From the NCBI GenBank assembly GCA_919901855.1, contig CAKKQC010000007.1, forward strand, positions 100,529-164,528: a stretch of DNA of 64,000 nucleotides, written 5' to 3'. Below, piece by piece: positions 21,692-45,683 of this stretch (position 1 is the stretch's first letter; each line of letters starts with the position of its first letter). The position numbers and the translations under genes are program-made. Origin of the DNA: a bacterium (GTDB taxonomy: Bacteria > Oederibacteriota > CAKKQC01). Under the pieces are notes generated by a model, which did not search any database, was not told where the DNA came from, and saw nothing but the letters and a program-made list of their open reading frames with translations.

Positions 21692-22138
21692 CTAGAGGCC
21701 GCGGACCCGGTCGCGGGAGAGGTGGTATGCCGTGGACTGCTGGATGAGCGTCGCGATGCCGGGATTCCTGAGGAGGACCGCGTCGAAGGCCTTGCGCGAG
21801 AGGCTGTAGAGCTCGCCATCCTCGTCGCCGATGATGGTCGCGGTGCGGGGTGTGTTCCCGAGGAGCGCGACCTCGCCGAAGTATGTCCGCGGCCCCATGG
21901 TGTTGATCCGCTGCTTCATCAGGAACCTGGACTTGAAGACTCCGACCTTGCCGGATGCCACGATGTAGAACCGGTCGCCCACCTCGCCCTGCCGGATGAT
22001 GACGTCGCCCTTCCGGTACGTCTGCTTCTCCATGGCGTTCAGGAGCGCGTCGAGTTCCGCCATCTTTAGGTTCTGGAAGAACGAGATCCTCTGAAGCAGG
22101 ACCCGGAAGTCCGCGAGTTCGGAGCTGGTCGGTTCCAT
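21692..22138 (-). CDS. Cyclic nucleotide-binding domain protein
   Basis: The 148-residue protein is a single cNMP-binding (CRP-type) beta-barrel. KGDVIIRQGEVGDRFYIVAS and the phosphate-binding cassette YFGEVALLGNTPRTATI include the Glu and Arg that contact ribose and cyclic phosphate. A helix containing RVLLQRISFFQNLKMAELDA precedes it. No DNA-binding or enzymatic domain is present, so it is a stand-alone sensor or regulatory subunit. It is divergent from the kinase operon, whose last gene encodes a class III nucleotide cyclase. A link between the two is inference from context. Confidence 0.85.
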   Translation of the reverse strand: MEPTSSELADFRVLLQRISFFQNLKMAELDALLNAMEKQTYRKGDVIIRQGEVGDRFYIVASGKVGVFKSRFLMKQRINTMGPRTYFGEVALLGNTPRTATIIGDEDGELYSLSRKAFDAVLLRNPGIATLIQQSTAYHLSRDRVRGL

Positions 22139-22147
22139 GTCTTCGAT

Positions 22148-22176
22148 ATTGTAGGCCCAAATGTCCGCTGGGCCAA
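22148..22176 (-). promoter_or_regulatory. Promoter of the cNMP-binding gene (leaderless)
   Basis: On the reverse strand TTGGCC (22171-22176), a 17-nt spacer and TACAAT (22148-22153) are followed after 9 nt by the ATG at 22138. A leader of normal length is not possible from this promoter. Confidence 0.55.
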
Positions 22177-22181
22177 GGTGT

Positions 22182-22187
22182 TATACT
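22182..22187 (+). promoter_or_regulatory. Candidate -10 for the kinase operon
   Basis: TATACT lies 42 nt before the preferred ATG at 22230. No clear -35 is seen. It would overlap the divergent promoter of the cNMP-binding gene, allowing cross-regulation. Confidence 0.35.
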
Positions 22188-22229
22188 ACCGCCCATGCCG
22201 GGCCCAGCGAGAGCGGCGATCCGCGCCCG

Positions 22230-25200
22230 ATGACCAATCAGCCCTCGGGCCGCGGACCCCACCCCCCTCCGGACGACTTCGACGGCACCCTGCGGCAGAC
22301 CGACGATGCCGTCGGGAAGACCCGCGATCTATCCGTTCCCACCGGGGTCGAACAGCAGGCTAACGCGCCGCGCATAGCGGGGTATGTGCTGACGGCCCTG
22401 CTGGGGCAGGGGGCATACGCGCAGGTGTGGCGGGCATGGCAAGTCAGGACGCGGAAGTGGGTGGCCATCAAATGCTTCCTGGCGCGCGGCGGGGTGAACT
22501 GGATGCTCCTCCAGCGGGAGATGGAGCGGCTGATCCGGCTGGACAAGCACCCGCACATCGTGTCCCTGCTGGATGCCGACCTCACTTCGGACCCAGCCTG
22601 GTATGCGCTCGATCTCCTGGAAGCCGGATCGCTGGACCAATACGTGGACCCCACGAAGCTCGTGGGCGTGGACCGGGCGGCGAAGTGGATGGAGGAGGTG
22701 GCGGAGGCGCTCTCGTACGTGCACTCGAAGGGGATCATTCACTGCGACCTCAAGCCCGCGAACGTCCTGCTCGACGACATGGGGCATGCGCGGGTGGCGG
22801 ACTTCGGGCAGTCGAAGGTGCTGAACGAGTCGTCGGGCGCCCTGGGGACGCTCTTCTACATGGCGCCCGAGCAGGCGATGATTTCACACGGCGGGGCGGG
22901 CGTCCAGCCGGACGTGCGGTGGGACGTGTACGCGCTGGGGGCGAGCATGTACGCGGTGCTTACGGGGAAGGTACCGAACCTGGAAAGCCTGAAGGCGCGG
23001 CTGACGGCGAGTGCCGGGCTGGAGGAGCGTCTGAACGCGTACCGGGAGCTGACGCGGGGAGCCGTGCTCCAGTCGTCGCGGGCGGTGCGCGGCCCGGTGG
23101 TGGACGAGGACCTGTCCGCGATCGTGGGCAAGTGCCTGGCGTACGACCCGAACCGGCGGTACGACTCGATGGGGGCGGTTCTGGCGGATCTCAAGGCGCG
23201 TCGCGAGTCGCGTCCGGTGACTCCCCTGGCGCATCGCCGCCTCTACCGCGTGCACAAGGCCCTGCGCAGGAACCGCGTTGCCAACGCCGTCGCCGCCGTT
23301 GGGATCGCGTGCTTGGCCGTGGCGTTTGCCGAGATCGCGAGCGAACGGGATGCGGTCAAGAGCCAGATGGGCCTCCTGTACGGCGAGCGGGGGCGGCGGA
23401 TGGCGGAGGCGAGTGACGACGCGTCGGCGTTCCTCTTCTTCGCCCGGGCGTACGCCATCTGCGGGACCGATGTGGCCCGCGCCAACGCGGCCTCCTTCGC
23501 GCGCGCCTTCCCCCTGCCCCTCGGCGTCCTCGAAGCCTCCCGGCCCGTGACGGGCGTCTGCTTCAGTCCCGACGGGAAACGGGTCGCCGTGCTCGAGTTC
23601 AACCGGACCGTCCGGCTCTGGGACCCGGCCGCGATGGCCAGGATCGGCGCGCCCTTGGCGCACGCCTACTCCGTCCGCCGGATGGCGTTCAGCCCGGACG
23701 GCAGTCGGCTGGTGACGGCCGGCGCCGACGGGGTGGCGCGCGTCTGGGACGCGGAGACGGGTGCGGAACTGGGGGTGATCTTGCGGCACGAGGACGAGGT
23801 CACGGAGGCCGTCTTCGGCCCGGCGGGATCGTGGATCATGACGTCCGGGCTGGACGGGGTCGTATCCCGCTGGGACGCGAAGACCGGCAAGCGGCTGGGC
23901 ACGGTCCGCACCGGATCGGCCGTGCTCGCGCTGGCGCTGAGTCCGGACAGGGCGACGTTCGCGACTGGGGGTGCGGATCGGACCGCGCGGCTGTGGCGGG
24001 CCGGGGGCATGACGCCGGCGGGGCCCCCCCTGCGGCATCGCGCCGCAGTGGCGGGAGTGGCTTTCAGCCCGGATGGCGCGAACCTGCTGGCCTGGAGCGA
24101 GGACCAGATGGCCCGGCTCTGGTCGGCCGGCGGGGTGTCCAGGCGCGAGCAGGGAGGCGTGTCCCGAATCTTCGACCGGCCGTTCAGTCCCGACGGACGG
24201 CGGCTCATCCTGGCCATGGACGGCCGGACGCTCCAGCTCATGGACATGGCAACGTGGCGGGCCCTGCCGGGCGTGATGACCCACTCCGATTGCGTGAACG
24301 CCGCCGCCTTCAGTCCGGACGGCGCACTAATCGCCACGGCCTCGTCGGACGGAACGGTGAAGTTGTGGGACGGGCGGACCGCCGAGCCCACCGGCCGGAG
24401 CCTCCAGCACGACGGCGACGTCTACGCGGTCGCGTTCAGCGGAGACGGGAGACTGATCGTGAGCGGGGGAGCGGACCTCACCGCCCGCCTCTGGGGCAGG
24501 CCCGAAGCGGGGTCGCACCGGACGGAGCTCGCATTGCGGACCGCGCTGACCGCGGCGGCGCTCTCTCCGGACGGGTCGCGCGTGGCGACGGGGGAGACCG
24601 GCAAGGTGATCCGGGTCCTGGATGCCCGCACGGGAACGGTACTGTGGACCCGACCGGTGAAGGAGATTCCCTCGCGGCTGGCGCTCAGCGGGGACGGCCG
24701 GTGGGTCGGCGCCGTCGTCGGCGGGACCTTCGTGGTCTTCGATGCGGCCTCGTCGGGTCCCCCGAAGGCCATGGGACGCGTAGACGAGGCGGTTCCGCCG
24801 TGCCTCAGCCGGGACGGCGGCCGGGCCATGACCGTGGACGGCGGCCGGATCCGGCTTTGGAACGTCGCGACGGGCGCGGCGGCCGGCGACTTCGGGGGTG
24901 CGGACCCGGTGACCGCGGCGGAGCTGGACGCGGACGGCGTCACCGTCGCCTACGGGACGAGGGGCGGCGAGGCGGGCGTCTGGAACAGCCGGGGGGGGAA
25001 GAGGCAGGAACGGGCGACGCCCGCGGCGGGCGCCGCCGCCGGGGAGGACCGCCGGGCTGACAACCCCGTCGGCGCGGTGGCCCTCAGTCCGGACGGGCTG
25101 ACCCTGGTATCGGCCGGTGCCGACCAGGCTGTCCGGGTCCGGGACGCCGCGTCCGGGGAAGAGACCGGGGTCGTCGTCCGGCCCGGCGGGACCGTCGTGC

Positions 25201-25574
25201 GCCTCGCCTTCTCGCCGGACGGCCGGGCGTTCGTGACCGCCTGCGACGACGGCTGGATCAGGATCTGGCACACCGGCACCGGCGAACTGCTGGGGAAGCC
25301 GCTGCGGGCCGACGGCGCGGTCTCGGCCCTGGTCTGCGCCAGTCTGGGCGACGGCGTCGCGGTCGTCGCAGTCGACATGGAAGGAAGGACGCGGGCGTGG
25401 GACGCCGGGTGGCTGGCCGCCGCCGAGCCGCCCGCGGAGATCACGCGCAACGCGAACCTGGCGACCTTCCGCCGTGTCGATGAACGGGGCAGTATTGTTC
25501 CGCTGGGGCCGGGCGAGTTGGAGGCACTCAAACAGGGGAGGCCGTCTTCGGCGGTCTCGAGGAGGCACAAGTGA
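22230..25574 (+). CDS. Ser/Thr protein kinase with transmembrane helix and WD40 propeller
   Basis: The 1114-residue protein starts at ATG 22230 because this matches the start of the paralogue at 28377; an upstream ATG at 22161 would add 23 unconserved residues. The kinase domain (about 48-330) has LGQGAYAQVW, VAIK (Lys81), IIHCDLKPANVLL (Asp173; HCD instead of HRD) and DFG (Asp191), so catalysis is plausible. A helix at about 349-366 crosses the membrane. The rest is 12 or more WD40-like blades with FSPDG and RLWD signatures. Family members are membrane kinases whose propeller senses or scaffolds partners. The stop overlaps the next start (GTGA). Confidence 0.85.
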   Translation: MTNQPSGRGPHPPPDDFDGTLRQTDDAVGKTRDLSVPTGVEQQANAPRIAGYVLTALLGQGAYAQVWRAWQVRTRKWVAIKCFLARGGVNWMLLQREMERLIRLDKHPHIVSLLDADLTSDPAWYALDLLEAGSLDQYVDPTKLVGVDRAAKWMEEVAEALSYVHSKGIIHCDLKPANVLLDDMGHARVADFGQSKVLNESSGALGTLFYMAPEQAMISHGGAGVQPDVRWDVYALGASMYAVLTGKVPNLESLKARLTASAGLEERLNAYRELTRGAVLQSSRAVRGPVVDEDLSAIVGKCLAYDPNRRYDSMGAVLADLKARRESRPVTPLAHRRLYRVHKALRRNRVANAVAAVGIACLAVAFAEIASERDAVKSQMGLLYGERGRRMAEASDDASAFLFFARAYAICGTDVARANAASFARAFPLPLGVLEASRPVTGVCFSPDGKRVAVLEFNRTVRLWDPAAMARIGAPLAHAYSVRRMAFSPDGSRLVTAGADGVARVWDAETGAELGVILRHEDEVTEAVFGPAGSWIMTSGLDGVVSRWDAKTGKRLGTVRTGSAVLALALSPDRATFATGGADRTARLWRAGGMTPAGPPLRHRAAVAGVAFSPDGANLLAWSEDQMARLWSAGGVSRREQGGVSRIFDRPFSPDGRRLILAMDGRTLQLMDMATWRALPGVMTHSDCVNAAAFSPDGALIATASSDGTVKLWDGRTAEPTGRSLQHDGDVYAVAFSGDGRLIVSGGADLTARLWGRPEAGSHRTELALRTALTAAALSPDGSRVATGETGKVIRVLDARTGTVLWTRPVKEIPSRLALSGDGRWVGAVVGGTFVVFDAASSGPPKAMGRVDEAVPPCLSRDGGRAMTVDGGRIRLWNVATGAAAGDFGGADPVTAAELDADGVTVAYGTRGGEAGVWNSRGGKRQERATPAAGAAAGEDRRADNPVGAVALSPDGLTLVSAGADQAVRVRDAASGEETGVVVRPGGTVVRLAFSPDGRAFVTACDDGWIRIWHTGTGELLGKPLRADGAVSALVCASLGDGVAVVAVDMEGRTRAWDAGWLAAAEPPAEITRNANLATFRRVDERGSIVPLGPGELEALKQGRPSSAVSRRHK
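22271..23230 (+). repeat. Copy 1 of a 960-bp in-operon kinase-domain duplication
   Basis: This stretch encodes the N-terminal segment and kinase domain. It aligns without visible gaps to 28412-29371, with most differences at third codon positions. Similarity stops sharply at the start of the membrane helix. Confidence 0.8.
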
Positions 25575-28369
25575 AGGGACTCAAGAGTTTTCTGGAGGAT
25601 CTGGGGCGGGGCGCGGGCACTGCGGCGGCCTGGGGACTGTGGGCGGAGGCGAGCCGGGCGCTCTTCGTGCTTGTCGGGTTGGGACTGGTCGTCGCCACGG
25701 TGGACGTGTTCCTGTCCATCTTTTGGAGGTGCGTGCCGTGGGAGTATTTCCAACTGTGGTATAGGATCGCGGCTGTGACGGTGGATCCGACCCCGGAGCT
25801 CCTCGGGTTCGTCGTGATCGTGATTGCGGGAGCCTTCGCGGCCTCGCTCCTGTTCGGCGCGATCTCGCTGGTGATGGCCCGGGGCCGCGCGGAGCCGGCC
25901 GCAGGCAGAGATGCGCCTGCGGCGGGAGCCGACAGGATCGTGGCCGCTGCCCGGCCGCTCTACACCGCGCTGGGAGCGGCAGGGGCGGGGTACGTTTTCC
26001 TTTGGCAGGTCTGGGAGGATCTCAACCGGGCCAGTTGGAACTGGGAGGGGAGTTTCATCTATGTCGAGCGGTCGGCGTTTCCCCTGAGCCTGGTGCAGGC
26101 GGACCTCGTCATCCTGCTGGGGCTGGCCGTGATCCTGATCGGGCTCGCCTGGACCCTGCCGGCGCGAGTCGACCGGGTCTTTGCCCGCGAGTCCCGGGCC
26201 GGGGAATCCGGATTGTGGGTGACGGGACTCCTCCATCTGCTCCTGGCGGTTTCGCTCGTTCCGGCCGCACTGCTCGTCTGGTCCGTGGGTTTCTCCGCCA
26301 GCACGGTCCTGGGCTTCCTGGACGGACACTGGCTCAGGATGCTCCTGGTCGTGGGTTTGCTCGTGGTCCTGTTCGTCCGGATGACCGGATGGCGGCGCAA
26401 CTTCCTCTCGTTGTTTACGGCCCCCGCTGGGTCGAGACCGGCCGGCGCGACGCTGAAGACGATGCTCGTGCACATGGTGATCCTCACGGCGGCCGCGGTC
26501 GGGTGCTGGGTGCCGGTGCGCGTGTACTGGTCCCTGAAGCTCCACGGGCTCGAGGGATCCGTCCGGCAGAAGGGGCATCCCGTGAGCCTGGCGGATCTGC
26601 CCAGACCGGTGGAAGGCCGGGCGCTCACCCGGGACGAGCTGGTCAAGGTCGTGGCCGAGTTCGATCGCGAAGCCAGTACGCCGGCCGAACAGATCAGGAT
26701 GCTCCGTGAGCGTGCCAAGGGGGAGGCGCTGGACTCCTGGAGACTCAAGCTCGCCGGGGGTGCGCCGGGCGGGGCTGCCGTACCTCCGGAGGCCACTCCG
26801 GGATTCGACGACCGCGGGTGGGAGAACGTGAAGGTGGGGGACGGTCCACAGCCCCAATTGGAGGGTCGCTTCGGATGGGCGTGGTTCCGCACGACGGTCA
26901 ACCTCACCCGCAAGGACCTGGACGGCGGGCTGACGAGGCTGACCTTCTGGGGTGTCGACGAGAACGCGGTCGTCTACGTGAACGGGTCGTTGGTGGGCGA
27001 GCACCGGAAGTGGGTTGAGCCGTTCCAACTGGACGGACGGAAGGTATTCCGTCCCGGTGCCAACGTGATTGCCGTGTGTGTCGAGAACACGCAGGGCCCG
27101 GGGGGCATCTGGAGGCCCGTCCAGGTCACGCGGGCGATCGACATGAAGGCTTGGGCTGTGGCCGGCAAGACGAAGAGTTACTGGGGGACCGTCGAGGACA
27201 TGTACCTGGCAAAGGTTGTGCTTCGGCGTCGGGACGGCGAAGCCCTGCGCCATGTCCGAGCCGCACTCGGCACGGCCGCCGGCCAGAGCCTGCAGCGCCT
27301 GGCCGGGGTTTCCGACGGGCGCGCATCTTACCGGGCATGGGACTACCCGAAGCTGGCGAAGGCGCCGTTCGACTACCGGATGGCGATCGATGCCACGTGG
27401 TACGGATACGGCACTCGCCGCACCCTCTCGGCGTTTGACCGGGCGATGGTCCTGAAGGCCGCCGTGGACGCCTCCGACGGCCGGATCGGGGCCGCGTGGG
27501 AGGACTTGCGGACGGTGGTCCGACTGGGCCGCCTGTTGGGCCAGGATCCGTTGTTCGTTTCGAAGTACGTGGAAAGGGACGCCATGCGGGCCGCGGCGGA
27601 AGGGGCCGTCACGATCCTCCTCAACAGCCCCGCGGCGGAGCTTCCCCGGGACTTGGCGCGCGATTTCGAGAACGCGGCGGCGACGGACTTCTTCCCGGAG
27701 GCGGTCCGGGCATCCATCGCGTGGACGCTGGACGCGCATCGGTGGGAGCGCCGTGGGTGGGTACGGCCGAATCTTCCCGACAGCTACGGGGGAACAGGCA
27801 GGAGACCATCCGGGATCGCCCGGCTGGACCTGAGTCTCCGGTACCTGACGGGGGCGTGGGACGCCTCCGTGTGGTCGGCGCTCGGCGTCCTGCGCGAGTT
27901 CTCGTCCCCGGTGCCGGGCGGGGAGCTCGAGGCCAAGCGGACCGCGTTCCTGGCGCGGTCGAGGCGGGGCGGGTACTTCTGGCAGGGCGATTATGATCTC
28001 GGGAACGGGCTGTTCAAGGGTTACGTCTACATCTGCAAGCACGAATGGGTGGACAGGATGTGGTTCCAGTTGCCGCTCGTTTGCTCCGGTCTCAACCGGT
28101 ACCGCGCCCAGAACGGCCGGTTTCCTGCCGCCCTCAAGGAGTTGAGTCCGCGGTTCGTCCCGGCCGTCTGTCTCAAGGACCCGTTCACGAACGGGTGGCT
28201 GAGCTACGAGGCGAAAGGGAGCAGCTACCAGATCCTGAGCGACGGACCGGACGGGAACGGCTTCGTCTACTGGGACAGCAAGAACCACACCTGGCGCACA
28301 AAGGTCCTGGTCCAGTATCCGTTGCCTCCGGCGGTCAAGGGCGACATCAGGATCATGAGGGAGCAGTAG
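25571..28369 (+). CDS. Seven-helix membrane protein with jelly-roll domain and pseudopilin-like C-terminus
   Basis: The 932-residue protein is not a known family to me. About seven hydrophobic helices lie in residues 30-330 (for example LVGLGLVVATVDVFL and LLVVGLLVVLFVRM). Residues about 400-525 look like the GH2-type sugar-binding jelly roll (GWAWFRTTVNL, VYVNGSLVGEHRKWVEPF, VIAVCVENTQGPGGIW). A helical region follows. The last 100 residues (ALKELSPRFVPAVCLKDPFT ... YQILSDGPDGNGF) resemble the C-terminal half of GspG-type pseudopilins. It is coupled by GTGA to the upstream kinase and followed after 7 nt by the kinase-GspF-GspE fusion. That neighbour supports a functional link to type II secretion-like parts. 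Confidence 0.6.
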   Translation: MKGLKSFLEDLGRGAGTAAAWGLWAEASRALFVLVGLGLVVATVDVFLSIFWRCVPWEYFQLWYRIAAVTVDPTPELLGFVVIVIAGAFAASLLFGAISLVMARGRAEPAAGRDAPAAGADRIVAAARPLYTALGAAGAGYVFLWQVWEDLNRASWNWEGSFIYVERSAFPLSLVQADLVILLGLAVILIGLAWTLPARVDRVFARESRAGESGLWVTGLLHLLLAVSLVPAALLVWSVGFSASTVLGFLDGHWLRMLLVVGLLVVLFVRMTGWRRNFLSLFTAPAGSRPAGATLKTMLVHMVILTAAAVGCWVPVRVYWSLKLHGLEGSVRQKGHPVSLADLPRPVEGRALTRDELVKVVAEFDREASTPAEQIRMLRERAKGEALDSWRLKLAGGAPGGAAVPPEATPGFDDRGWENVKVGDGPQPQLEGRFGWAWFRTTVNLTRKDLDGGLTRLTFWGVDENAVVYVNGSLVGEHRKWVEPFQLDGRKVFRPGANVIAVCVENTQGPGGIWRPVQVTRAIDMKAWAVAGKTKSYWGTVEDMYLAKVVLRRRDGEALRHVRAALGTAAGQSLQRLAGVSDGRASYRAWDYPKLAKAPFDYRMAIDATWYGYGTRRTLSAFDRAMVLKAAVDASDGRIGAAWEDLRTVVRLGRLLGQDPLFVSKYVERDAMRAAAEGAVTILLNSPAAELPRDLARDFENAAATDFFPEAVRASIAWTLDAHRWERRGWVRPNLPDSYGGTGRRPSGIARLDLSLRYLTGAWDASVWSALGVLREFSSPVPGGELEAKRTAFLARSRRGGYFWQGDYDLGNGLFKGYVYICKHEWVDRMWFQLPLVCSGLNRYRAQNGRFPAALKELSPRFVPAVCLKDPFTNGWLSYEAKGSSYQILSDGPDGNGFVYWDSKNHTWRTKVLVQYPLPPAVKGDIRIMREQ

Positions 28370-28376
28370 CGGAAGG

Positions 28377-31300
28377 ATGACCGAACCCGCGACACCGCGC
28401 ACGCCGCCGCCGGACGACTTCGACGGCACCCTGCGGCAGACCGACGAGGCCGTCGGGAAGACCCGGGATCTCTCCGTGCCCACCGGGGTCGAACAGCAGG
28501 CGAACGCCCCACGGATAGCCGGGTATGTCTTGACCGCCCTGCTGGGGCAGGGCGCGTACGCGCAGGTGTGGAAGGCGTGGCAGGTGCGGACGCGGAAGTG
28601 GGTGGCCATCAAGTGCTTCCTGGCGCGGGGCGGCGTGAACTGGATGCTCCTCCAGCGGGAGATGGAGCGATTGATCCGGCTGGACAAGCACCCGCACATC
28701 GTCTCCCTGCTCGATGCGGACCTGACGGCCGATCCTGCCTGGTATGCGCTCGACCTGCTGGAGGCGGGGTCGCTGGAGCAGTACGTGGACCCGGCGAAGC
28801 TGGTGGGCGTGGACTCGGCGGCGAAGTGGATGGAGGAGATCGCGGAAGCGCTGTCGTATGTGCACACGAAGGGGATCATCCACTGCGACCTGAAGCCGGC
28901 GAACGTGTTGTTGGACGACATGGGGCACGCGCGGGTGGCGGACTTCGGGCAGTCGAAGGTCCTGAACGAGTCGTCGGGCGCGCTGGGCACGCTGTTCTAC
29001 ATGGCTCCGGAGCAGGCCATGATCTCGCAGGGCGGGGCGGGAATCCAGCCGGACGTGCGGTGGGACGTGTACGCGCTGGGCGCGAGCGCGTATGCGGTGC
29101 TGACGGGGAAGGTGCCGAACCTCGAGAGCCTGAAGGACCGGCTCACGACCAGCCCGGGGCTCGAGGACCGGCTGAGCGCGTACCGGGAGCTGACGCGGGG
29201 GGCCGTGCTCCCGTCGGCGCGGGAGGTGCGTGGCCTGGTGGTGGACGAGGACCTGTCCGCGATCGTGGGCAAGTGCCTTGCCTACGACCCGGATGCGCGA
29301 TACGACTCGATGGGAGCGGTGCTCGCGGATCTCAAGGCGCGGCGGGAGTCGCGACCGGTGACTCCGTTGGCTGCGAGTCGACGCTACCGAACGGGGAAGT
29401 TCCTGCGGCGCAACGCGATCTTGGTTGCCGTTTGCGGCATCGCGCTGGTTGCGCTCGCGGGAGCATTCAGCCAGGTCGTGCGGAAGCAGAGGCTCGCCAC
29501 CCGCCAGTTGGCGGACTCCTACCTTCTGCGGGCTGAGCAGATGGCCGCGCAGGATGATGTGCCGGCCGCCGCCATCTACTCCGCGGAGGCCAACCGCATC
29601 CTGCCTTCCGCGGTGGCGCGCATGAACGGAATGGCATTCCTGAGCGAGATGGACATGCCTGTGTTCGAGGCGCGGGACGAGCACGAACTGAAGCTGGCCG
29701 ATTTCTGCGCGGATGGCGCGCAGATCGTGACCCTCTGCGACGAGGGGGAAATCAGGAGGTGGGATGCGGAGACCGGCAAGCCGGTCAGAGGCACCGTGAA
29801 GCTGGCCGGGGCCGGGCCGGGGATAGCCTTCGCCGAGATCAGCCAGGACCGGCGGACACTGCTCACCTGCGGTGATGGGGGGAAGGCCTGGGGGGGCGTC
29901 ACGGTTCGGGTGTGGGATGTCGCAACCGGGAAGGCGATGGGTGAGCCCCTGAAGATGGGCCCGTTGATGACGATCGGGGGCTGGAATCTCGGCGCCATCT
30001 TCAGTCCGGACGGCGGACGCGTGCTGACTTTCGGTAACAGCGCGGTAGCCAGGCTGTGGGATGGGCGGAACCTGCGGGCGGTTGGCAAGGGCTTCGTGTG
30101 CGGCAGCACGGTGAGGGCCGCGGCGTTCAGTCCGGACGGGATGAGCGTGGCCACCGGAGGACAGGATGGGGTGCAACTCTGGAACATCAAGTCCGGCAAG
30201 GCATTGAACCTGCGGCATGGGGCGGAGGTCAGCCAGATATCCTTCAGCCGGGACGGCCGGTTGCTGGTGGTGGCGGGGGGGGCAGGCGTGCGCGTGTGGG
30301 ATACCCGCACTGGTAAACAGGTCGGGCTGGAGTTCCGGCACGACAAGGATGTCAAGTTCGCGGCGCTCAGCCCGGATGGGTCGGGCCTGCTGACGGGGGG
30401 CGATGACCAGACCGGCCGGATGTGGGACGTCGGGACCGGCGAGCTCGTTCGCGGCGACCTGCGGCATCATGGGATGCTGCTCGGGGGGGAGTTCAGTCAG
30501 TACGGGACCCGTGTATTGACGGGTGCCGCCGACAACACTGCCCGGGTCTGGGGTCCCGAGCCGGGCAATCCACCCCTTCTGGTTCTACATCACGAGCGCC
30601 GACTCCTGGACGCCGTCTTCGGCCCGGACGGCACGAAGATCCTCACCCGGATGGAAGGCGGATCGGTGCGCATATGGGATGTGGCGCAGGCCGACCGGAA
30701 GGTGAGGACCATCCGTCCGAGCCCCTGGCTGGCGGATGTCCGGTTCAACCCGCGCCGGAACCTTATGGCCGTCGTGGACGGCTACGGAGCCATCACGCTG
30801 TTCCGGCGTGCGCGGCGCGGCTGGACCTACGTAGCGAAACACCCGTCGCTGGGCGGCATCCAGAAGGTATTCCTGGACTCGGAAGGCAAACGGGTGGTCG
30901 GCGTCGGCTGGGACAACTCCCTCGCGATCAGGGACGCCGGGAACGGGGAGATCGTCGCCCAGGTGCCTCCGGGGCCCGGAGAATGCCTGCTCGCGATGCC
31001 GAGTCCGGACGGGTTGCGGATCGTGACGGTGAGCCGTGATGCCGGGAGCGGCGATTTCGTATTCCGGGCTTTCAGAATGGAGGACGGGAAGCCCGACGGC
31101 AAACCGTTCACGGCCAAGGGCGGCGCCCCGTGGCTCGCCCTCAGCCCTGATTGCCGCAATGTCGTGCTGAAATCCGGCGACGGGAAGACAACAAGGGTCT
31201 TCGATTTGGCGACCGGTTCTCAGGTGGGCTCTGACATGCGGCACGATTCCATTGTGCGCTACGTGCACTACGGCCAGGACGGTGAAGGGATTCTGGTGAT

Positions 31301-33416
31301 CACCGAGGACGGGAAGGTCCGGCTCTGGGATCCGCGGACCGGACGGGCGGAAGGCCGGGCTTTCTCGTGCGGGCAGATCCTTGCGCTCATCAGAGCCGAG
31401 GATGGCTGGCGAGCCCTCGAGGGCCGGCCGGGGTCCTTGCGCATCTGGGACGCAAAGCGGGGTGTGGCCGTGGGCCGGGATCTCTGGATGCAGGGCGGGC
31501 TAACTTCGGTCTCCGCGTATCCCGGAGGAGGTAGGTTGTTGACCGGATGCAACGATGGTTCCGTCCAGCTCTGGGACCTGCGGACGGGGAGTCCGATCGG
31601 TTCCCCGGTCAGGTTTGCGAACGGCACGCGAAGCGTGGATCTGGGGAAGGACGGCACGGCTGCCGCGTTCAACTGGGTCGAGATGCGGGTCTGGAGCATC
31701 CACGATACCGACACGGCGGTGGAGCCGGATGACCTGGTCCTGCGCGCGCAGGTGATGACCCGCTGCCGGGTGGATGAGGCCGGCCGAACGGAAGTCCTGA
31801 CTCCCGCGGCGTGGCAGGCACTCTCGGCGCGTCTTTCGGCCGGGAAGCCGGCCGGGCCGGAGGGAAGCGGGACGGCGGACTGGTCGGCCGTAACGAGCCG
31901 CGCCCTTTCGGTCGGTGCCGGGCAGGTGGACCTCGCCGGAGCCTTGCGCGAACTGGGCCGGCTGATGTCCAGCGGCGCGCCGATTCTGGACGCCCTGGAC
32001 GCCGTCGGCAAGAAATGCTCCGACCGGGCGCTGGCGGAAGCATTCGGCGAAGTCCGCAAGTCGCTCAGGGAGGGGATGTCGCTCGCCGGGCCCATGCGCG
32101 CCACCGGCGCTTTCCCTCCGCTCGTGATCCACCTGGTGTCCGCGGGATGCGAAATAGGCAAGCTGGACGCGATGCTGATCAAGGCGGCGGACCTGCTTCG
32201 GTCGCCGGTGGCGGGGAGCAACAGCGTTAAGGCCGAAACGGCGGCGGCCATGCGAGCGTTTGAGGCCATGACCGCCGCGGATTTGCGGACGGGGCAATCG
32301 CTGGCGATTATAGGCGAATGGACAGCGAATACCGAGTTGCGCAAGGTCCTGTCGGGCATGGCGGACGAGCTCAACAGGAAAGTCAGCCTTCCCGCGGTTC
32401 TTGCCGCTCATGTGAACGTCTTCGGCGCCACCTGGCTCGGCAGAATCCCGCGCGGTAGCGAAGGAGACTGGAATGCGGTACTGAAAGCGCTTGCCGACTC
32501 CCTCGAGGAGGAGTTGATGAGGAGCGGAGTGGCGGGGAGCAACGCAGGAGGCTCCGTTGACGTGATGGAATGGGCGCTCAGCCGGGGCGGTGGGGGAGGG
32601 ACAGCCGGCACTGGGCCGTTGCCGTTAGGCGATCTGGGGTTGGATCGGTCTGAGCAGGGCGCGATCGACCGCGCTTTGTCCGCCGGGCGGGGTCTCATCC
32701 TGTTCACGGGACCTGACGGGTCCGGCAAGACGACCACGGCCATTGCAGCCTTGGCCCGCGTCCGCGGCAAGAAGATCCACCTGGTGGGGGAGCATGTCGA
32801 GGAGTTGGAGCGTGCGGGAGCTTCCTTCCTTTCGACCGCCGGGGGTGGATTGGGATCCGCGCTCGAGTTGCTCGCGAAGAAGCCCGCAGGCGTGGTCCTC
32901 GTGGGCGACCTCGGGGATGCCTCCGAAATCCGGCTCGTCGGCAAGCTCGTTGCCGCAGGGCACCTGGTTATAGCCGTGGCCAGGGGCGACGACTGCGCGG
33001 AGGTGGTTGCGCGGTTTGCCGGGCTCGTGGACCCGGCCACGGGGAAGCCGGTCGATGCCAAGGCGTTTTCCGACGCGCTCTCGCTGGTCGTTTCCCAGCG
33101 CCTGCTCCGCCGGGTATGCCGCGCCTGCGCGATACCCGCGGGGGACGGGACTGGCGAGTTCGCGGGCGTCTCCCTCATGAAGGGCGCGGGATGCCCGGCG
33201 TGCGGCAATTCGGGGTTCAAGGGCCGGGTCGCATCCTTCGAGCTTCTCCCGGCCACGGCGGCGGTCCGCGCCGCGGTGGCGAAGCGGGCCCGGGTGGAAG
33301 TCATCCGGAGTCTTGCGCTCAAGGAGGGCCTGATCCCGATGCGTCAGGCGGCGGTCGCGCAAGTTAAGGCCGGGCTGACGACGCCAGATGAGTTCAGGAA
33401 GGGAGGGTTCCGCTAG
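28377..33416 (+). CDS. Kinase-TM-WD40-GspF-GspF-GspE fusion protein
   Basis: The 1679-residue protein has these parts in order. The kinase (about 48-330; Lys79, HCD Asp171, DFG Asp189) is followed by a transmembrane helix (347-364) and WD40 blades (about 410-1120). Two GspF-type domains follow: F1 at about 1180-1285 (LGRLMSSGAPILDALDAV, FPPLVIHLVSAGCEIGKLD) and a more degenerate F2 at about 1291-1381 (LADSLEEEL). They have no membrane helices between them, unlike true GspF. The C-terminal half of a GspE/PilB ATPase completes it: Walker A GPDGSGKTTT near 1444, SQRLLRRVCRACA, a four-Cys zinc site CxxC...CPAC, and FKGRVASFELLP. Walker B is altered (VVLVGDLGD) and the TLHTN His box is missing. 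ATP binding is likely; strong hydrolysis is uncertain. Confidence 0.85.
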   Translation: MTEPATPRTPPPDDFDGTLRQTDEAVGKTRDLSVPTGVEQQANAPRIAGYVLTALLGQGAYAQVWKAWQVRTRKWVAIKCFLARGGVNWMLLQREMERLIRLDKHPHIVSLLDADLTADPAWYALDLLEAGSLEQYVDPAKLVGVDSAAKWMEEIAEALSYVHTKGIIHCDLKPANVLLDDMGHARVADFGQSKVLNESSGALGTLFYMAPEQAMISQGGAGIQPDVRWDVYALGASAYAVLTGKVPNLESLKDRLTTSPGLEDRLSAYRELTRGAVLPSAREVRGLVVDEDLSAIVGKCLAYDPDARYDSMGAVLADLKARRESRPVTPLAASRRYRTGKFLRRNAILVAVCGIALVALAGAFSQVVRKQRLATRQLADSYLLRAEQMAAQDDVPAAAIYSAEANRILPSAVARMNGMAFLSEMDMPVFEARDEHELKLADFCADGAQIVTLCDEGEIRRWDAETGKPVRGTVKLAGAGPGIAFAEISQDRRTLLTCGDGGKAWGGVTVRVWDVATGKAMGEPLKMGPLMTIGGWNLGAIFSPDGGRVLTFGNSAVARLWDGRNLRAVGKGFVCGSTVRAAAFSPDGMSVATGGQDGVQLWNIKSGKALNLRHGAEVSQISFSRDGRLLVVAGGAGVRVWDTRTGKQVGLEFRHDKDVKFAALSPDGSGLLTGGDDQTGRMWDVGTGELVRGDLRHHGMLLGGEFSQYGTRVLTGAADNTARVWGPEPGNPPLLVLHHERRLLDAVFGPDGTKILTRMEGGSVRIWDVAQADRKVRTIRPSPWLADVRFNPRRNLMAVVDGYGAITLFRRARRGWTYVAKHPSLGGIQKVFLDSEGKRVVGVGWDNSLAIRDAGNGEIVAQVPPGPGECLLAMPSPDGLRIVTVSRDAGSGDFVFRAFRMEDGKPDGKPFTAKGGAPWLALSPDCRNVVLKSGDGKTTRVFDLATGSQVGSDMRHDSIVRYVHYGQDGEGILVITEDGKVRLWDPRTGRAEGRAFSCGQILALIRAEDGWRALEGRPGSLRIWDAKRGVAVGRDLWMQGGLTSVSAYPGGGRLLTGCNDGSVQLWDLRTGSPIGSPVRFANGTRSVDLGKDGTAAAFNWVEMRVWSIHDTDTAVEPDDLVLRAQVMTRCRVDEAGRTEVLTPAAWQALSARLSAGKPAGPEGSGTADWSAVTSRALSVGAGQVDLAGALRELGRLMSSGAPILDALDAVGKKCSDRALAEAFGEVRKSLREGMSLAGPMRATGAFPPLVIHLVSAGCEIGKLDAMLIKAADLLRSPVAGSNSVKAETAAAMRAFEAMTAADLRTGQSLAIIGEWTANTELRKVLSGMADELNRKVSLPAVLAAHVNVFGATWLGRIPRGSEGDWNAVLKALADSLEEELMRSGVAGSNAGGSVDVMEWALSRGGGGGTAGTGPLPLGDLGLDRSEQGAIDRALSAGRGLILFTGPDGSGKTTTAIAALARVRGKKIHLVGEHVEELERAGASFLSTAGGGLGSALELLAKKPAGVVLVGDLGDASEIRLVGKLVAAGHLVIAVARGDDCAEVVARFAGLVDPATGKPVDAKAFSDALSLVVSQRLLRRVCRACAIPAGDGTGEFAGVSLMKGAGCPACGNSGFKGRVASFELLPATAAVRAAVAKRARVEVIRSLALKEGLIPMRQAAVAQVKAGLTTPDEFRKGGFR
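28412..29371 (+). repeat. Copy 2 of the kinase-domain duplication
   Basis: Partner of 22271-23230, same orientation, about 6.1 kb apart. The membrane helix and propeller downstream are unrelated at the DNA level. Confidence 0.8.
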
Positions 33417-33471: not shown

Positions 33472-35160
33472 ATGAGCTGGTTCATCGAGGCGCGGCCGAA
33501 GGGCGGAACGCCTGTAAGGCTCGAGATCATGCCCGGGAAGCCGGTAGTGATCGGCCGGTCCGACCAGGCGGACATGAAGGTTGCGGGCGACGGGTTCCTG
33601 AGCAGGCGGCATGTGGAGGTCAAGCTAGACGGGAAGCGGCTCGCGGTTCGCCGGCTCGAAGGCGCGTCGAACCCGGTCCTCTTCCGTGGCCAGGAGTCGG
33701 CGGAGTTCGCGATGGGGACCAACGACTGGTTCGCGATCGGGGAGACCCGGTTCGTCCTGCTCGGCGGCGAGGGAATGGTGCCGATCAAGACCGAAACGGA
33801 CGACGCCCCCGCGGTCCAGCACACGATGAGCGAGGCCGACCTCTACGCGATGGGGGGGCGGGCGGACCGCATGCGGCTCCTGGACCTCGTCGAGCTGCCC
33901 GAGATGCTGAGGTCGATGAAGCGTGAGGAGTTCTTCGTGCACCTCGCCGGGATGATCCGGCTGGCCACCGACGCCCGATGGGCGGCGGTGGCGAACGAGA
34001 ACGGCGAGGTGATCGCCCGGGACTGCATCGAGGACGCGCCGGCGGAATGGCGGATGAGCCGGTCCGTGATCAAGGCGGCCTTGCGCGACGCGCCGCGGCC
34101 GACGCTGTGCGTCTGGGGCGGGACCGCCGGGTTCGAGGCGACGGTGCAGGAGGGGACCGACTGGGCGATCTGCGCCGCGATGAAGGTTCCGGGCGGCGCC
34201 CCGCTCGTGCTCTATGCCGCGGGCGAGGGGGGGGAGGAAGCCGCGCGCCGGCACGAGGAGAACTCGCGGTTCATTGGCCTCGTCGCGGACATGGTGGGGC
34301 GCAGCCTCTCGGTCCACCGGCTGGAGTCGTGGCAGGGGCGCCTCGAGCACTACTTCTCCGGGCCCGTCATCTCCAAGATCCTGGAGTCCAGCGATCCCAA
34401 GGGGCTGGAGCCCCGGATCTCGCCGGCGACGATCATGTTCTTCGACATCCGCGGGTTCTCGAAGCGCACGGAGGGGCAGAACGAGCGCATCCTGTCCTAC
34501 CTGGGGGAGCTCCGCCGGATCATGACCGCGATGACCGAGGAGATCTTCAACGAGGGCGGCAACGTGCTCCAGTATCTGGGCGACGGCATCATGGCGTGCT
34601 GGAACGTCCCGATCGAGGTGCCGAACCACGTGGACGGGGCGGTCCGCGCCGCGATGCGGATGGCCACGCGCCTTGGGGAAATGACCGACGGCTGGAAGTG
34701 CGGGATCGGGCTGCACACGGGCGACGTCGTGGCGGGGTCGCTGGGGTCGGACCTCATGTTCTCGTACGGGGTCATGGGCGCGGTCGTGAACCAGTCGTCC
34801 CGGGTGGAGGGGATCACGAAGCACGTCGAGACCCCGATCCTGGTGACGAAGGAGATCGCGGAAAAGCTCTCGCCGGCGGTGGCGTTGACCAGGCGGATCG
34901 GCCGGTTCCAGCCTGCGGGCATGCACGTCGCGCTCGATCTCTACGAGCCCCTGCCGCCCGACGCCGAGCGCGAGCCGCTCGCCGTCTACGCGAAGGGCCT
35001 CGAGATCTTCGAGCGGGGCGACTGGGAGGAAGCCTACAAGGTCCTCGACCAGCTCGGCCACGAGGACCGGCCGGCGCGGTTCATCAAGGCGCTGGCCGAG
35101 AGCTACCGGCGCCATCCCCCCAAGGGCTGGCAGGGCATCATCGAGTTGAGCGAGAAGTAG
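33472..35160 (+). CDS. FHA-GAF-class III nucleotide cyclase
   Basis: The 562-residue protein has an N-terminal FHA domain (about 20-95: VIGRSDQADMKV, LSRRHVEVKLDG), which binds phosphothreonine peptides. A GAF-like region (about 150-280) follows, then a cyclase domain (about 315-475). Both metal-binding Asp residues are present (MFFDIRGFSKRTE and YLGDGIMACW), as are the transition-state Asn/Arg (VNQSSR). The purine-specifying positions are unusual: Gln where Lys is normal (LQYLGD) and Gly where Asp/Thr is normal (SYGVMG). The FHA domain makes it a natural partner of the upstream kinases, and the cNMP-binding protein at 21692 a possible receptor. The gap to the fusion gene is 55 nt. Confidence 0.85.
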   Translation: MSWFIEARPKGGTPVRLEIMPGKPVVIGRSDQADMKVAGDGFLSRRHVEVKLDGKRLAVRRLEGASNPVLFRGQESAEFAMGTNDWFAIGETRFVLLGGEGMVPIKTETDDAPAVQHTMSEADLYAMGGRADRMRLLDLVELPEMLRSMKREEFFVHLAGMIRLATDARWAAVANENGEVIARDCIEDAPAEWRMSRSVIKAALRDAPRPTLCVWGGTAGFEATVQEGTDWAICAAMKVPGGAPLVLYAAGEGGEEAARRHEENSRFIGLVADMVGRSLSVHRLESWQGRLEHYFSGPVISKILESSDPKGLEPRISPATIMFFDIRGFSKRTEGQNERILSYLGELRRIMTAMTEEIFNEGGNVLQYLGDGIMACWNVPIEVPNHVDGAVRAAMRMATRLGEMTDGWKCGIGLHTGDVVAGSLGSDLMFSYGVMGAVVNQSSRVEGITKHVETPILVTKEIAEKLSPAVALTRRIGRFQPAGMHVALDLYEPLPPDAEREPLAVYAKGLEIFERGDWEEAYKVLDQLGHEDRPARFIKALAESYRRHPPKGWQGIIELSEK

Positions 35161-43554: not shown

Positions 43555-43998
43555 GTGACCCATGACGACTGCGCTGGAGGAATCCTGGACCCCGCCGGCC
43601 TGAGCATAGATCCGGAATCGCCGGAGGGGGTCAACCGGCGTGCGTCACCGCGTCGCCCGGTCCGGATCGCGGGCACGGCGTGGATCGTCGCGCGCGTGGT
43701 CGCCCCGCCCTTCAAGGTCGAGGCAACCGATGTCAGCGCCGGCGGGATGATGCTCCACGGCACCTCGCGCGCCTTCCCCGAGCTGGAGCCCGGCGACGAG
43801 TTCATGATCGGGTTCCCGGTCGAGCACTCCAAGGAGGACGTCAGCGTGCGGGGCAGGCTGGCGTGGAAGCGGATGGGGTTGATGACCCTGCTCGGGGACT
43901 GGTCCTTCGGCATCCGGTTCCACGACACGCCCGAGTCCGTGATCCTCAAGCTCCTCGACGTGGCCGCGCGCCAGCGGGAGAGTCCCCAAAAGCCCTGA
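43555..43998 (+). CDS. PilZ domain protein (c-di-GMP receptor candidate)
   Basis: The 147-residue protein has the PilZ RxxxR motif in NRRASPRRPVRIAG and the D/NxSxxG motif in ATDVSAGGMMLHG, which together bind cyclic di-GMP. Barrel strands continue through VRGRLAWKRMGL and SFGIRFHD. No effector domain is attached, so it probably controls a partner such as motility or exopolysaccharide machinery. It starts at GTG after a GGAGG site, 9 nt from the preceding gene. Confidence 0.85.
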   Translation: MTHDDCAGGILDPAGLSIDPESPEGVNRRASPRRPVRIAGTAWIVARVVAPPFKVEATDVSAGGMMLHGTSRAFPELEPGDEFMIGFPVEHSKEDVSVRGRLAWKRMGLMTLLGDWSFGIRFHDTPESVILKLLDVAARQRESPQKP

Positions 43999-44030
43999 CG
44001 GGGCCGCCGTCTGCGGCGGAGGCGCCCGAA

Positions 44031-44060
44031 TTGAACGCGGACGCGCGGGGGGCGTACAAT
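44031..44060 (+). promoter_or_regulatory. Sigma-70-like promoter of the reverse transcriptase gene (leaderless)
   Basis: TTGAAC (44031-44036), an 18-nt spacer and TACAAT (44055-44060) precede the ATG at 44070 by 9 nt. No ribosome binding site is present. Confidence 0.6.
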
Positions 44061-44069
44061 CCCGACGCA

Positions 44070-45683
44070 ATGACCGCCACCGCCCGCGCCCTGCCGCCCC
44101 TCGACCGCCCGCTCTTGTGGGGCCGCCTCTACCGGGAGGCCGAGCTCCTGAAGGCCGCGCTTCGCGTCTACACCAAGCCCCTGTTCGCGTGGCGCAAGGC
44201 CCTCGCGGTCTCGACCGACGACCGCACGCTCTACGACTTCGCGCGCTCGGGTTTGAAGCATCTCGACCGCATGCACGGCGAGCTCGCGCGCGGCGAGTTC
44301 CGGTTCCGGCCGGGGCTGGCGCTTACGTTCAACTTCAACGGCAAGCGTCGAACCCTGCACATCTACCCGTGGGAGGAGCGGGTCGTGGACCTCCTGCTGT
44401 ACCGGCTGCTCACCCGGTCCCTGCACGGCTGGCTCTCGCCCCACGCGTGGGCCTACCGGATCACGGGGTTCGGCGTGGACCGGTGCCAGCGCGGAGTGGC
44501 GAAGGCCCTTCAGCGGGGCGGAGGACCCCGGTACGTGGTCAAGCGGGACATCACGGAGTATTTCGCGTCCGTGGACCACGGGATTCTGCTGGAGCAGGTC
44601 GGCTCGCTGGTGGCGCCTGGCGACCCGCTCATGCGCCTGCTCGAATCCCGGGTGCGGTTCCAGTACCGGCGCGACGGCGAGACGCTGACCGCGGACCGCG
44701 GCATCCCGTTCGGGACCGCGGTCGCGTGCGCGTTCGCGAACATCCACTTGACGGGGCTGGACCGCGACCTGGCCGCGATCCCGGGGATCGCGTACTTCCG
44801 GTACGCGGACGACATACTCGTCGTGACGCCGGATGGCCCGGCGGCGCGCCGGGCGGCGTCGGTTATCGACGACGCGCTAGCCTCCCTGCGATTGACCGAC
44901 AAGGCAAGTCACCGGCACGACTACTATTTCGCCGCGCCCCCGGGTCCGAGGACGGACCCGCCGCGCGAAGCCTTCGGCTTCGCGGGGGTTTCGCGGTTCA
45001 GGCATTTGGGATTGGAGTACCGCGCGGACGGGTCGATCGGGCTCTCGCGCGACAAGTTCCGGAAGATCATGAACCTGTTCCGGTACGCGTTCCGGCGCAA
45101 GGCGAAGCGGCTCGCGCGGATGAAGGACCCGGAGGCGCGGGCGCGCACCGCGGTCGAGCTCGCACGCCAGGTGCTCGAGAACGGAATGCGGAACATCGCG
45201 ATCGTGGACTACTACCTCAAGCACGTGACCGACGAGGCCCAGCTCGGCCTGCTCGACCGCTGGCTGGCCGAGGAGGTTCTCGCGATCGCGACCGGCCGGG
45301 GCCACCGGAAGGGCAACTTCCGCGTTATTTCCTACGGGCGCCTGCGGGCCCTGGGTCTGCCGTCGCTCGTGCATCGGCGCCGGCTCATTCGGCACGGTCA
45401 CCTGGATTCGTCGTTCTTCATATGGAAGATTCAGCAGGCCCGGCGCGCGGCCGGACGAACGGAGGGGACGGCTGCCACCCCCGGAAAGGGCCCGCAAGGG
45501 CCGCTTCGCCGGGGATTCTCTCCAAGCCCAGAAGCAGCGGCAATTGAAACGCCCGTGGGAGAGGGCGCCGCCTGTCGATGGGTGTCATTGAAGAATGCTG
45601 CCGCTACGCGGCAGCATTCGTTTCCCAAGCCGTCCTTTCCATTGGTCACGGCCGCGCACACCAGTCAGGAGGATCCGAGGTGA
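44070..45683 (+). CDS. Stand-alone reverse transcriptase of uncertain class
   Basis: The 537-residue ORF has an RT palm and fingers: VVKRDITEYFASVDHGILLE (catalytic Asp near 160), RGIPFGTAVACAFANIHL and AYFRYADDILVV (YADD at about 245-248). A thumb-like segment follows, with GHRKGNFRVISYGRLRALGL and PSLVHRRRL. There is no maturase domain X, HNH endonuclease or Cas1. No DGR template/variable repeat is visible, and only 72 nt lie upstream, too little for a typical retron RNA. It belongs with unknown-group or group II-like bacterial RTs, many of which act in phage defence. The last 70 residues are Pro/Gly-rich and may be non-conserved. The stop overlaps the next gene by GTGA. Confidence 0.8.
   Translation: MTATARALPPLDRPLLWGRLYREAELLKAALRVYTKPLFAWRKALAVSTDDRTLYDFARSGLKHLDRMHGELARGEFRFRPGLALTFNFNGKRRTLHIYPWEERVVDLLLYRLLTRSLHGWLSPHAWAYRITGFGVDRCQRGVAKALQRGGGPRYVVKRDITEYFASVDHGILLEQVGSLVAPGDPLMRLLESRVRFQYRRDGETLTADRGIPFGTAVACAFANIHLTGLDRDLAAIPGIAYFRYADDILVVTPDGPAARRAASVIDDALASLRLTDKASHRHDYYFAAPPGPRTDPPREAFGFAGVSRFRHLGLEYRADGSIGLSRDKFRKIMNLFRYAFRRKAKRLARMKDPEARARTAVELARQVLENGMRNIAIVDYYLKHVTDEAQLGLLDRWLAEEVLAIATGRGHRKGNFRVISYGRLRALGLPSLVHRRRLIRHGHLDSSFFIWKIQQARRAAGRTEGTAATPGKGPQGPLRRGFSPSPEAAAIETPVGEGAACRWVSLKNAAATRQHSFPKPSFPLVTAAHTSQEDPR
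45593..45619 (+). terminator. Perfect 12-bp hairpin inside the RT reading frame tail
   Basis: GAATGCTGCCGC pairs exactly with its complement around a TAC loop and is followed by GTTTCCC. It resembles a rho-independent terminator with a poor U-tract. It lies within the last 30 codons of the RT frame, before the coupled downstream gene. Confidence 0.5.

Follow-up and report, generated by a model that had tools for sequence, protein, structure and literature searches.

The window analysed here, a stretch of 64,000 nucleotides, contains a series of genes on one strand in the order kinase-WD40 protein, membrane protein, fusion protein and FHA-cyclase. The fusion gene (28377..33416, + strand; ORF scan and Pfam) encodes a protein of 1679 aa, whilst the first gene of the series (22161..25574, + strand; Pfam, alignment) encodes a paralogous kinase-TM-WD40 protein of 1137 aa that lacks the GspF/GspE tail of the fusion. 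Divergent from this paralogue and only 22 nt away lies the gene for a stand-alone cyclic-nucleotide-binding (cNMP-binding) protein of 148 aa (21692..22138, - strand; Pfam). The two kinase genes flank a gene for a 932-aa membrane protein (25571..28369, + strand; Pfam, sequence scans), which exhibits a GH2-type sugar-binding jelly-roll fold and seven hydrophobic segments in a simple scan, and which is separated from the fusion gene by a gap of 7 nt. The C-terminal 113 residues of this neighbour resemble a pseudopilin (GspG) by eye (NGRFPAALKEL...DPFTNGWLSYEAKGSSYQILSDGPDGNG); with neither a Pfam nor a PDB-sequence match, this candidate was rejected. Downstream of the fusion, at a distance of 55 bp, follows a gene encoding an FHA-like domain and a class III nucleotide cyclase (33472..35160, + strand; Pfam). 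Further along the window we also observed a reverse transcriptase (43680-45683, + strand) closest to PADLOC RT_UG26 (109 bits), an unknown-group, defence-type enzyme; no direct repeats of at least 30 nt were found near it, and there was no Rfam match in the window.

The frame of the fusion gene runs uninterrupted over 1679 codons from ATG to TAG, as the original prediction had stated, and encodes a Ser/Thr kinase (aa 51–310), a membrane helix (347–365), a WD40 region (439–1110), a pair of GspF domains (1189–1381) and a GspE domain (1417–1672). All four Pfam matches exceed the gathering score: Pkinase (aa 51–310, 137.7 bits), WD40 (86.8 bits), T2SSF (aa 1189–1288, 66.0 bits) and T2SSE (aa 1417–1672, 91.6 bits against a cut-off of 24.9, covering profile positions 121–367 of 370). 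The original prediction had proposed an HMM search of the tail with the T2SSF and T2SSE profiles as a check, and both match. GC content at third codon positions (0.78–0.96) lies above that at second positions along the entire frame, junctions included, and a stop-free tail of 520 codons would arise at its own composition with p ~6e-4; the profile matches of the tail are evidence independent of this statistic. The presence of kinase, WD40, GspF and GspE parts in one gene is thus confirmed. A contig scan gave one match, to the GspE region (query aa 287–545), in an actinobacterial record. A single-sequence AlphaFold2 model of aa 1165–1679 was discarded (mean pLDDT 39).

The N-terminal kinase domain (28527..29306; Pfam and motifs) contains the complete motif set (GQGAYAQV, VAIK, HCDLKPAN, DFG and APE) and is followed by one hydrophobic segment (29415..29471; hydrophobicity, flank charges) and by the WD40 region (29691..31706; Pfam), in which WD40-type motifs recur every ~42 residues from 443 to 1089, giving ~16 blades, enough for two propellers; kinase, single helix and propeller had all been anticipated from the sequence. 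Over its first 330 residues the fusion shares 92% protein identity with the paralogue; at the DNA level a stretch of 968 bp is 88% identical, and this similarity ends approximately ten residues before the membrane helix. In window coordinates, positions 28401-29378 are 88% DNA-identical to the start of 22161-25574, and past the helix the two proteins are ~30% alike. The differences within the kinase repeat fall mainly at third positions (90/121), and 83 of the 107 changed codons are synonymous and 24 non-synonymous. This pattern indicates that the kinase part is under purifying selection against its paralogue; it is the pattern expected of a functioning kinase, and the front end appears to stem from a recent event, either duplication or gene conversion, that involved only the kinase. 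In G001, the only other genome of this bacterial family, contig C280 contains three kinase-WD40 genes in tandem, one of which is cut by the contig end.

GspF contains a pair of mutually homologous cytoplasmic domains (Cyto1 and Cyto2), separated and followed by membrane helices, and a model of its trimer shows Cyto1 from one protomer packed against Cyto2 from the adjacent one (PMC10790770). The fusion exhibits a Cyto2-type domain in first place (aa 1189–1282; 31941..32222) and a divergent Cyto1-type domain in second place (aa 1291–1381; 32247..32519), both assigned by domain HMMs and a tree. The second domain was found with Pfam when the tail was scanned alone, and also with a home-made HMM, and PDB-sequence matches for this part include PilC (3jc8, 1e-20) and GspF (5nbg, 2e-8). 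No membrane helix was found in aa 1161–1679 by a hydrophobicity scan, so that the claim of two GspF-type domains devoid of membrane helices holds. A GspF protein lacking its membrane helices cannot serve as a platform.

To determine the order of the two domains, we used separate HMMs for Cyto1 and Cyto2, trained on canonical GspFs that came almost entirely from the same phylum. In the fusion, the first domain reaches 74.0 bits with the Cyto2 HMM against 31.5 with Cyto1, and the second 25.3 bits with Cyto1 against -1.3 with Cyto2, whereas all other GspF proteins compared (36/36) exhibit the order Cyto1-Cyto2. A tree of 78 domains, whose few columns and long branches led us to leave its finer groupings unused, splits with 97/82 support: all canonical first domains group with the second domains of three soluble proteins, the fusion among them, and all canonical second domains group with the first domains of these three. 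The GspF part of the fusion is, by HMM and tree, permuted to Cyto2-Cyto1; the original prediction had recognised the domains, yet their reversed order had gone unnoticed. The two other soluble permuted proteins are encoded in the same genome (L049:7794-8717, - strand, 307 aa; L050:7013-7699, + strand, 228 aa), the first domain of the 307-aa protein being ambiguous by HMM (66 vs 59 bits) and Cyto2 by tree. This 307-aa protein also carries an extra N-terminal region resembling the start of a 470-aa gene (L160:8842-10254) that adjoins a normal gspF on contig C28. A Cyto2-Cyto1 profile built from the three proteins, which they match by construction, gave end-to-end matches only to these three across 384 genomes, with the best eight candidates per genome scored, and among these candidates no other genome had a full-length match at E <1e-24; the remaining matches were to the two halves separately, in genes mostly of ~400 aa.

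The C-terminal part of the fusion corresponds to the catalytic C-terminal domain of GspE/PilB alone (aa 1417–1672; 32625..33392; Pfam, PDB sequences, alignment), with PDB-sequence matches to PilF/PilB at 1e-25 to 1e-22. Since the T2SSE match begins at profile position 121 and is preceded by GspF-type sequence, N1D and N2D, and hence both arginine fingers, are absent. In PilB, the arginine fingers R271 and R286 both belong to N2D (residues 181–288), which packs against the C-terminal domain of the adjacent subunit (PMC5424180). Alignment to intact GspEs reveals that the Walker A motif GPDGSGKTT (aa 1445–1453; 32709..32735) and the four-Cys zinc site (Cys 1581, 1584, 1606 and 1609; 33117..33203) are intact. 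The Walker B/catalytic region (32892..32918) reads (VL)VGDLGD where intact GspEs have VGE[IV]RD, with the catalytic Glu replaced by Asp and the Arg by Gly, and the HIS box (32958..32996) reads GHLVIAVARGDD in place of GHLVLSTLHTND, retaining the first His (GHLV) and lacking the second; at the ASP box, where the register is ambiguous, GEHVEE stands in place of EDPVE. The original prediction of a GspE/PilB half with intact Walker A and zinc site was therefore correct as to the motifs, but the loss of N1D and N2D had escaped it; the altered Walker B it described is borne out (VGEIRD to VGDLGD), and of the lost His box only the second His is in fact missing. Formation of the known hexamer is not expected of a GspE catalytic domain devoid of N2D and arginine fingers. 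With N2D, the arginine fingers, the catalytic Glu, the second HIS-box His and the membrane platform all missing, the sequence argues against the fusion chain being a self-contained motor, though it may bind nucleotide or act on a real motor.

The closest homologue of the fusion GspE is a stand-alone mini-GspE in G001 (contig C181; L048:1285-2094, - strand), which is 41–42% identical; over 384 genomes no further mini-GspE was found at comparable scores. This protein is also devoid of N1D and N2D; it has lost its catalytic Glu, and its Walker A motif, GSGKA, lacks the Thr. Its gene adjoins a gspF gene whose product has membrane helices and the usual domain order. In the GspE tree the fusion and the mini-GspE form a pair (100/99), both on long branches, that groups (97/86) with a full GspE whose gene, in both family genomes, is flanked by TPR and cNMP-binding genes. 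A short insertion (DPATGKPVD / DPISGAGTD) common to the fusion and this TPR/cNMP-flanked GspE is absent from other GspEs and provides independent support for the same descent; by sequence, the GspE part derives from a paralogous GspE of this bacterial family. The three-gene set of TPR protein, full GspE/PilB and cNMP-binding protein (L051:4435-7833, L052:3560-6951), whose cNMP protein is 87% identical between the two genomes, could possibly represent a cyclic-nucleotide-regulated pilus ATPase. The cNMP gene of the window is only 28% identical to that of the C68/C119 operon, which does not establish common descent of the linkage. Beside the mini-GspE lies a PorV/LpoB-like gene (L048:2278-3684), which has a 46% identical counterpart in the genome of the fusion (L050:12961-13839, contig C38), at a distance of ~5 kb from one of the genes for a soluble GspF; this neighbourhood is partly shared with that of the mini-GspE.

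Elsewhere in the genome there are twelve other T2SSE matches of GspE/PilB/PilT type, one of them below the cut-off and all away from the fusion gene, as well as three full-size secretin matches and, where a contig ends, a further partial one. The secretins and the intact GspE and GspF proteins are encoded on contigs other than that of the fusion, and none of the window proteins that we scanned was recognised as a secretin, pilin, platform or other pilus/secretion protein. By these matches, pilus/secretion machinery is present in the genome and is not linked to the fusion gene.

The possibility that an assembly or frame error joined separate genes is very improbable. It could be raised because the source is a draft genome in 91 contigs, assessed from the assembled sequence, and because the kinase regions form an 88% repeat, the sole large one; however, the longest exact run between the two copies is 42 nt, which should not confuse ordinary assembly, and a swap there would affect the kinase-WD40 portion and could not create the WD40-GspF join. 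That join is in frame, and no 25-nt repeat was found across it (31500-32200) in the DNA of this analysis. In addition, the end of the WD40 part of the fusion, VDEAGRTEVLTPAAWQAL, has its counterpart in the paralogue's own C-terminal tail, VDERGSIVPLGPGELEAL, and the persistence of this ancestral-looking tail before the GspF part indicates that GspF and GspE were appended to a kinase-WD40 protein that was complete in other respects. Repeat-driven misassembly was rejected. A real join could still be no more than an evolutionary relic, in which read-through fused the genes by chance and the tail, lacking any role, is now decaying. Occurrence in one genome, degenerate motifs and the long branches of the fast-evolving GspF and GspE parts, which would also fit loss of function, favour such a view, but 520 codons have stayed open with coding-type third positions, the Walker A motif, the Cys4 site and the GspF helical core are retained, and the same permuted GspF module occurs in two other genes of the genome; we consider this explanation unlikely.

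The main doubt about a docking role for the tail concerns its location, a difficulty that the original prediction had not seen. With a cytoplasmic N-terminal kinase and a single helix, as homologues suggest, the propellers and the GspF and GspE parts would be extracytoplasmic, provided that the helix crosses the membrane; in that case docking on GspE or GspF and sensing of ATP would both be excluded, and the folds would act as stable interaction modules only. One helix does separate the kinase from the rest, and its N side is more positive than its C side in the paralogue, as it is in two relatives from G001, more clearly than in the fusion, where the flank charges are nearly balanced (N side +6; C side +5/-1, net +4) and the bias is weak. 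Against an external tail speak the Walker A motif and the four-Cys zinc site, which are hard to explain there; no bias against Cys is seen in the tail, as might count against it too, though Cys content does not decide the topology. Overall, we regard this arrangement as rather unlikely. Still less probable is that the tail is a kinase-gated nucleotide switch or motor, hydrolysing ATP and moving or switching something under kinase control. This is what the original prediction proposed, a motor turned into a kinase-controlled device, of which the motor-derived parts on a kinase chain hold, while the missing hallmarks mean that the chain would not be a motor. The intact Walker A and Cys4 sites and the presence of GspE and GspF parts on one chain are in its favour, and Asp can in places substitute for a catalytic Glu. 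However, N2D, both arginine fingers (PMC5424180), the second HIS-box His and the membrane platform are missing, and the mini-GspE of G001 has also lost its Walker A Thr and catalytic Glu, which suggests a subfamily leaving catalysis.

The reading that we tentatively prefer, though somewhat short of an even chance, is that of a membrane kinase with a motor-derived docking or nucleotide-sensing tail that would be wired to cyclic-nucleotide signalling, in favour of which speak the FHA-cyclase gene downstream and the flanking cNMP-binding gene. A membrane-anchored WD40 receptor-type Ser/Thr kinase would thus have acquired a soluble Cyto2-Cyto1 GspF pair together with a lone GspE catalytic domain, and this tail, probably assembling no hexameric motor, would bind, mimic or sense an authentic pilus/secretion platform or a platform-derived partner, with nucleotide binding as a possible input. 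As Cyto1 and Cyto2 pack between protomers in the GspF trimer, a Cyto2-Cyto1 chain could keep this contact in cis, holding the interface within one molecule. Kinase activity might then be set by the state of the pilus/secretion machine, or the kinase might be brought there by the tail, and its output could pass to the FHA-cyclase encoded next door and hence to cyclic-nucleotide signalling. This docking reading is opposed by its basis in a single genome, by the lack of pilus/secretion genes among the scanned window proteins, by the rapid evolution of the GspF and GspE parts and by the standard topology of such kinases, which would place the tail away from GspE/GspF and ATP. The more specific proposal, that the receptor kinase reads the motor state through the in-cis GspF interface and a catalytically retired GspE and reports it via the FHA-cyclase, would constitute an undescribed kind of sensor and is doubtful, if possible.

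Comparison with known systems places each part of the fusion within a known family, so that it is not a new category, and as a system it is a single case, the GspF-GspE tail being found in one genome only. With GspE/PilB ATPases (PF00437, TIGR02533, TIGR02538) it shares the C-terminal RecA-type domain, Walker A, GHLV and the four-Cys zinc site, but it differs in the loss of N1D, N2D, the arginine fingers and the second HIS-box His, in the Glu to Asp exchange and in being joined to GspF-type and kinase-WD40 parts. The mini-GspE of G001 is likewise a GspE C-terminal domain lacking N1D/N2D, but is a separate gene. In comparison with the GspF/PilC platform (PF00482, TIGR02120), two six-helix cytoplasmic-type domains are shared, whereas the platform has three membrane helices and the order Cyto1-Cyto2 and the fusion has no such helices and the order Cyto2-Cyto1. 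The association of kinase and WD40 domains has been reported for Planctomycetes and Cyanobacteria (PMC5587647). Bacterial kinase-TM-WD40 proteins (PkwA-like) share the N-terminal kinase, one helix and propellers, but the GspF-GspE tail occurs in none of the relatives followed to the C terminus in this analysis, one G001 relative being cut by a contig end. No kinase-GspE fusion, GspF-GspE fusion or permuted GspF was found in open-access literature text, in agreement with the claim that the architecture was undescribed.

The proposed route may be likened to pilus-to-cAMP surface sensing in Pseudomonas, but joined in one operon. In the Pil-Chp/CyaB system of Pseudomonas aeruginosa the state of the pilus feeds an adenylate cyclase, a route proposed to run via the PilJ chemoreceptor system, and the full path from type IV pilus state to cAMP is still undefined even there (PMC12607626); the comparison concerns the way of working only, and no homology of signalling is claimed. 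With motor-derived domains and a kinase in one natural protein, and a cyclase encoded beside it, the link between pilus and cyclic AMP would become directly testable within a single molecule. Furthermore, as the structure of GspF is only partly known, the permuted soluble GspF module may serve as a tool that offers the Cyto1-Cyto2 contact free of the membrane.
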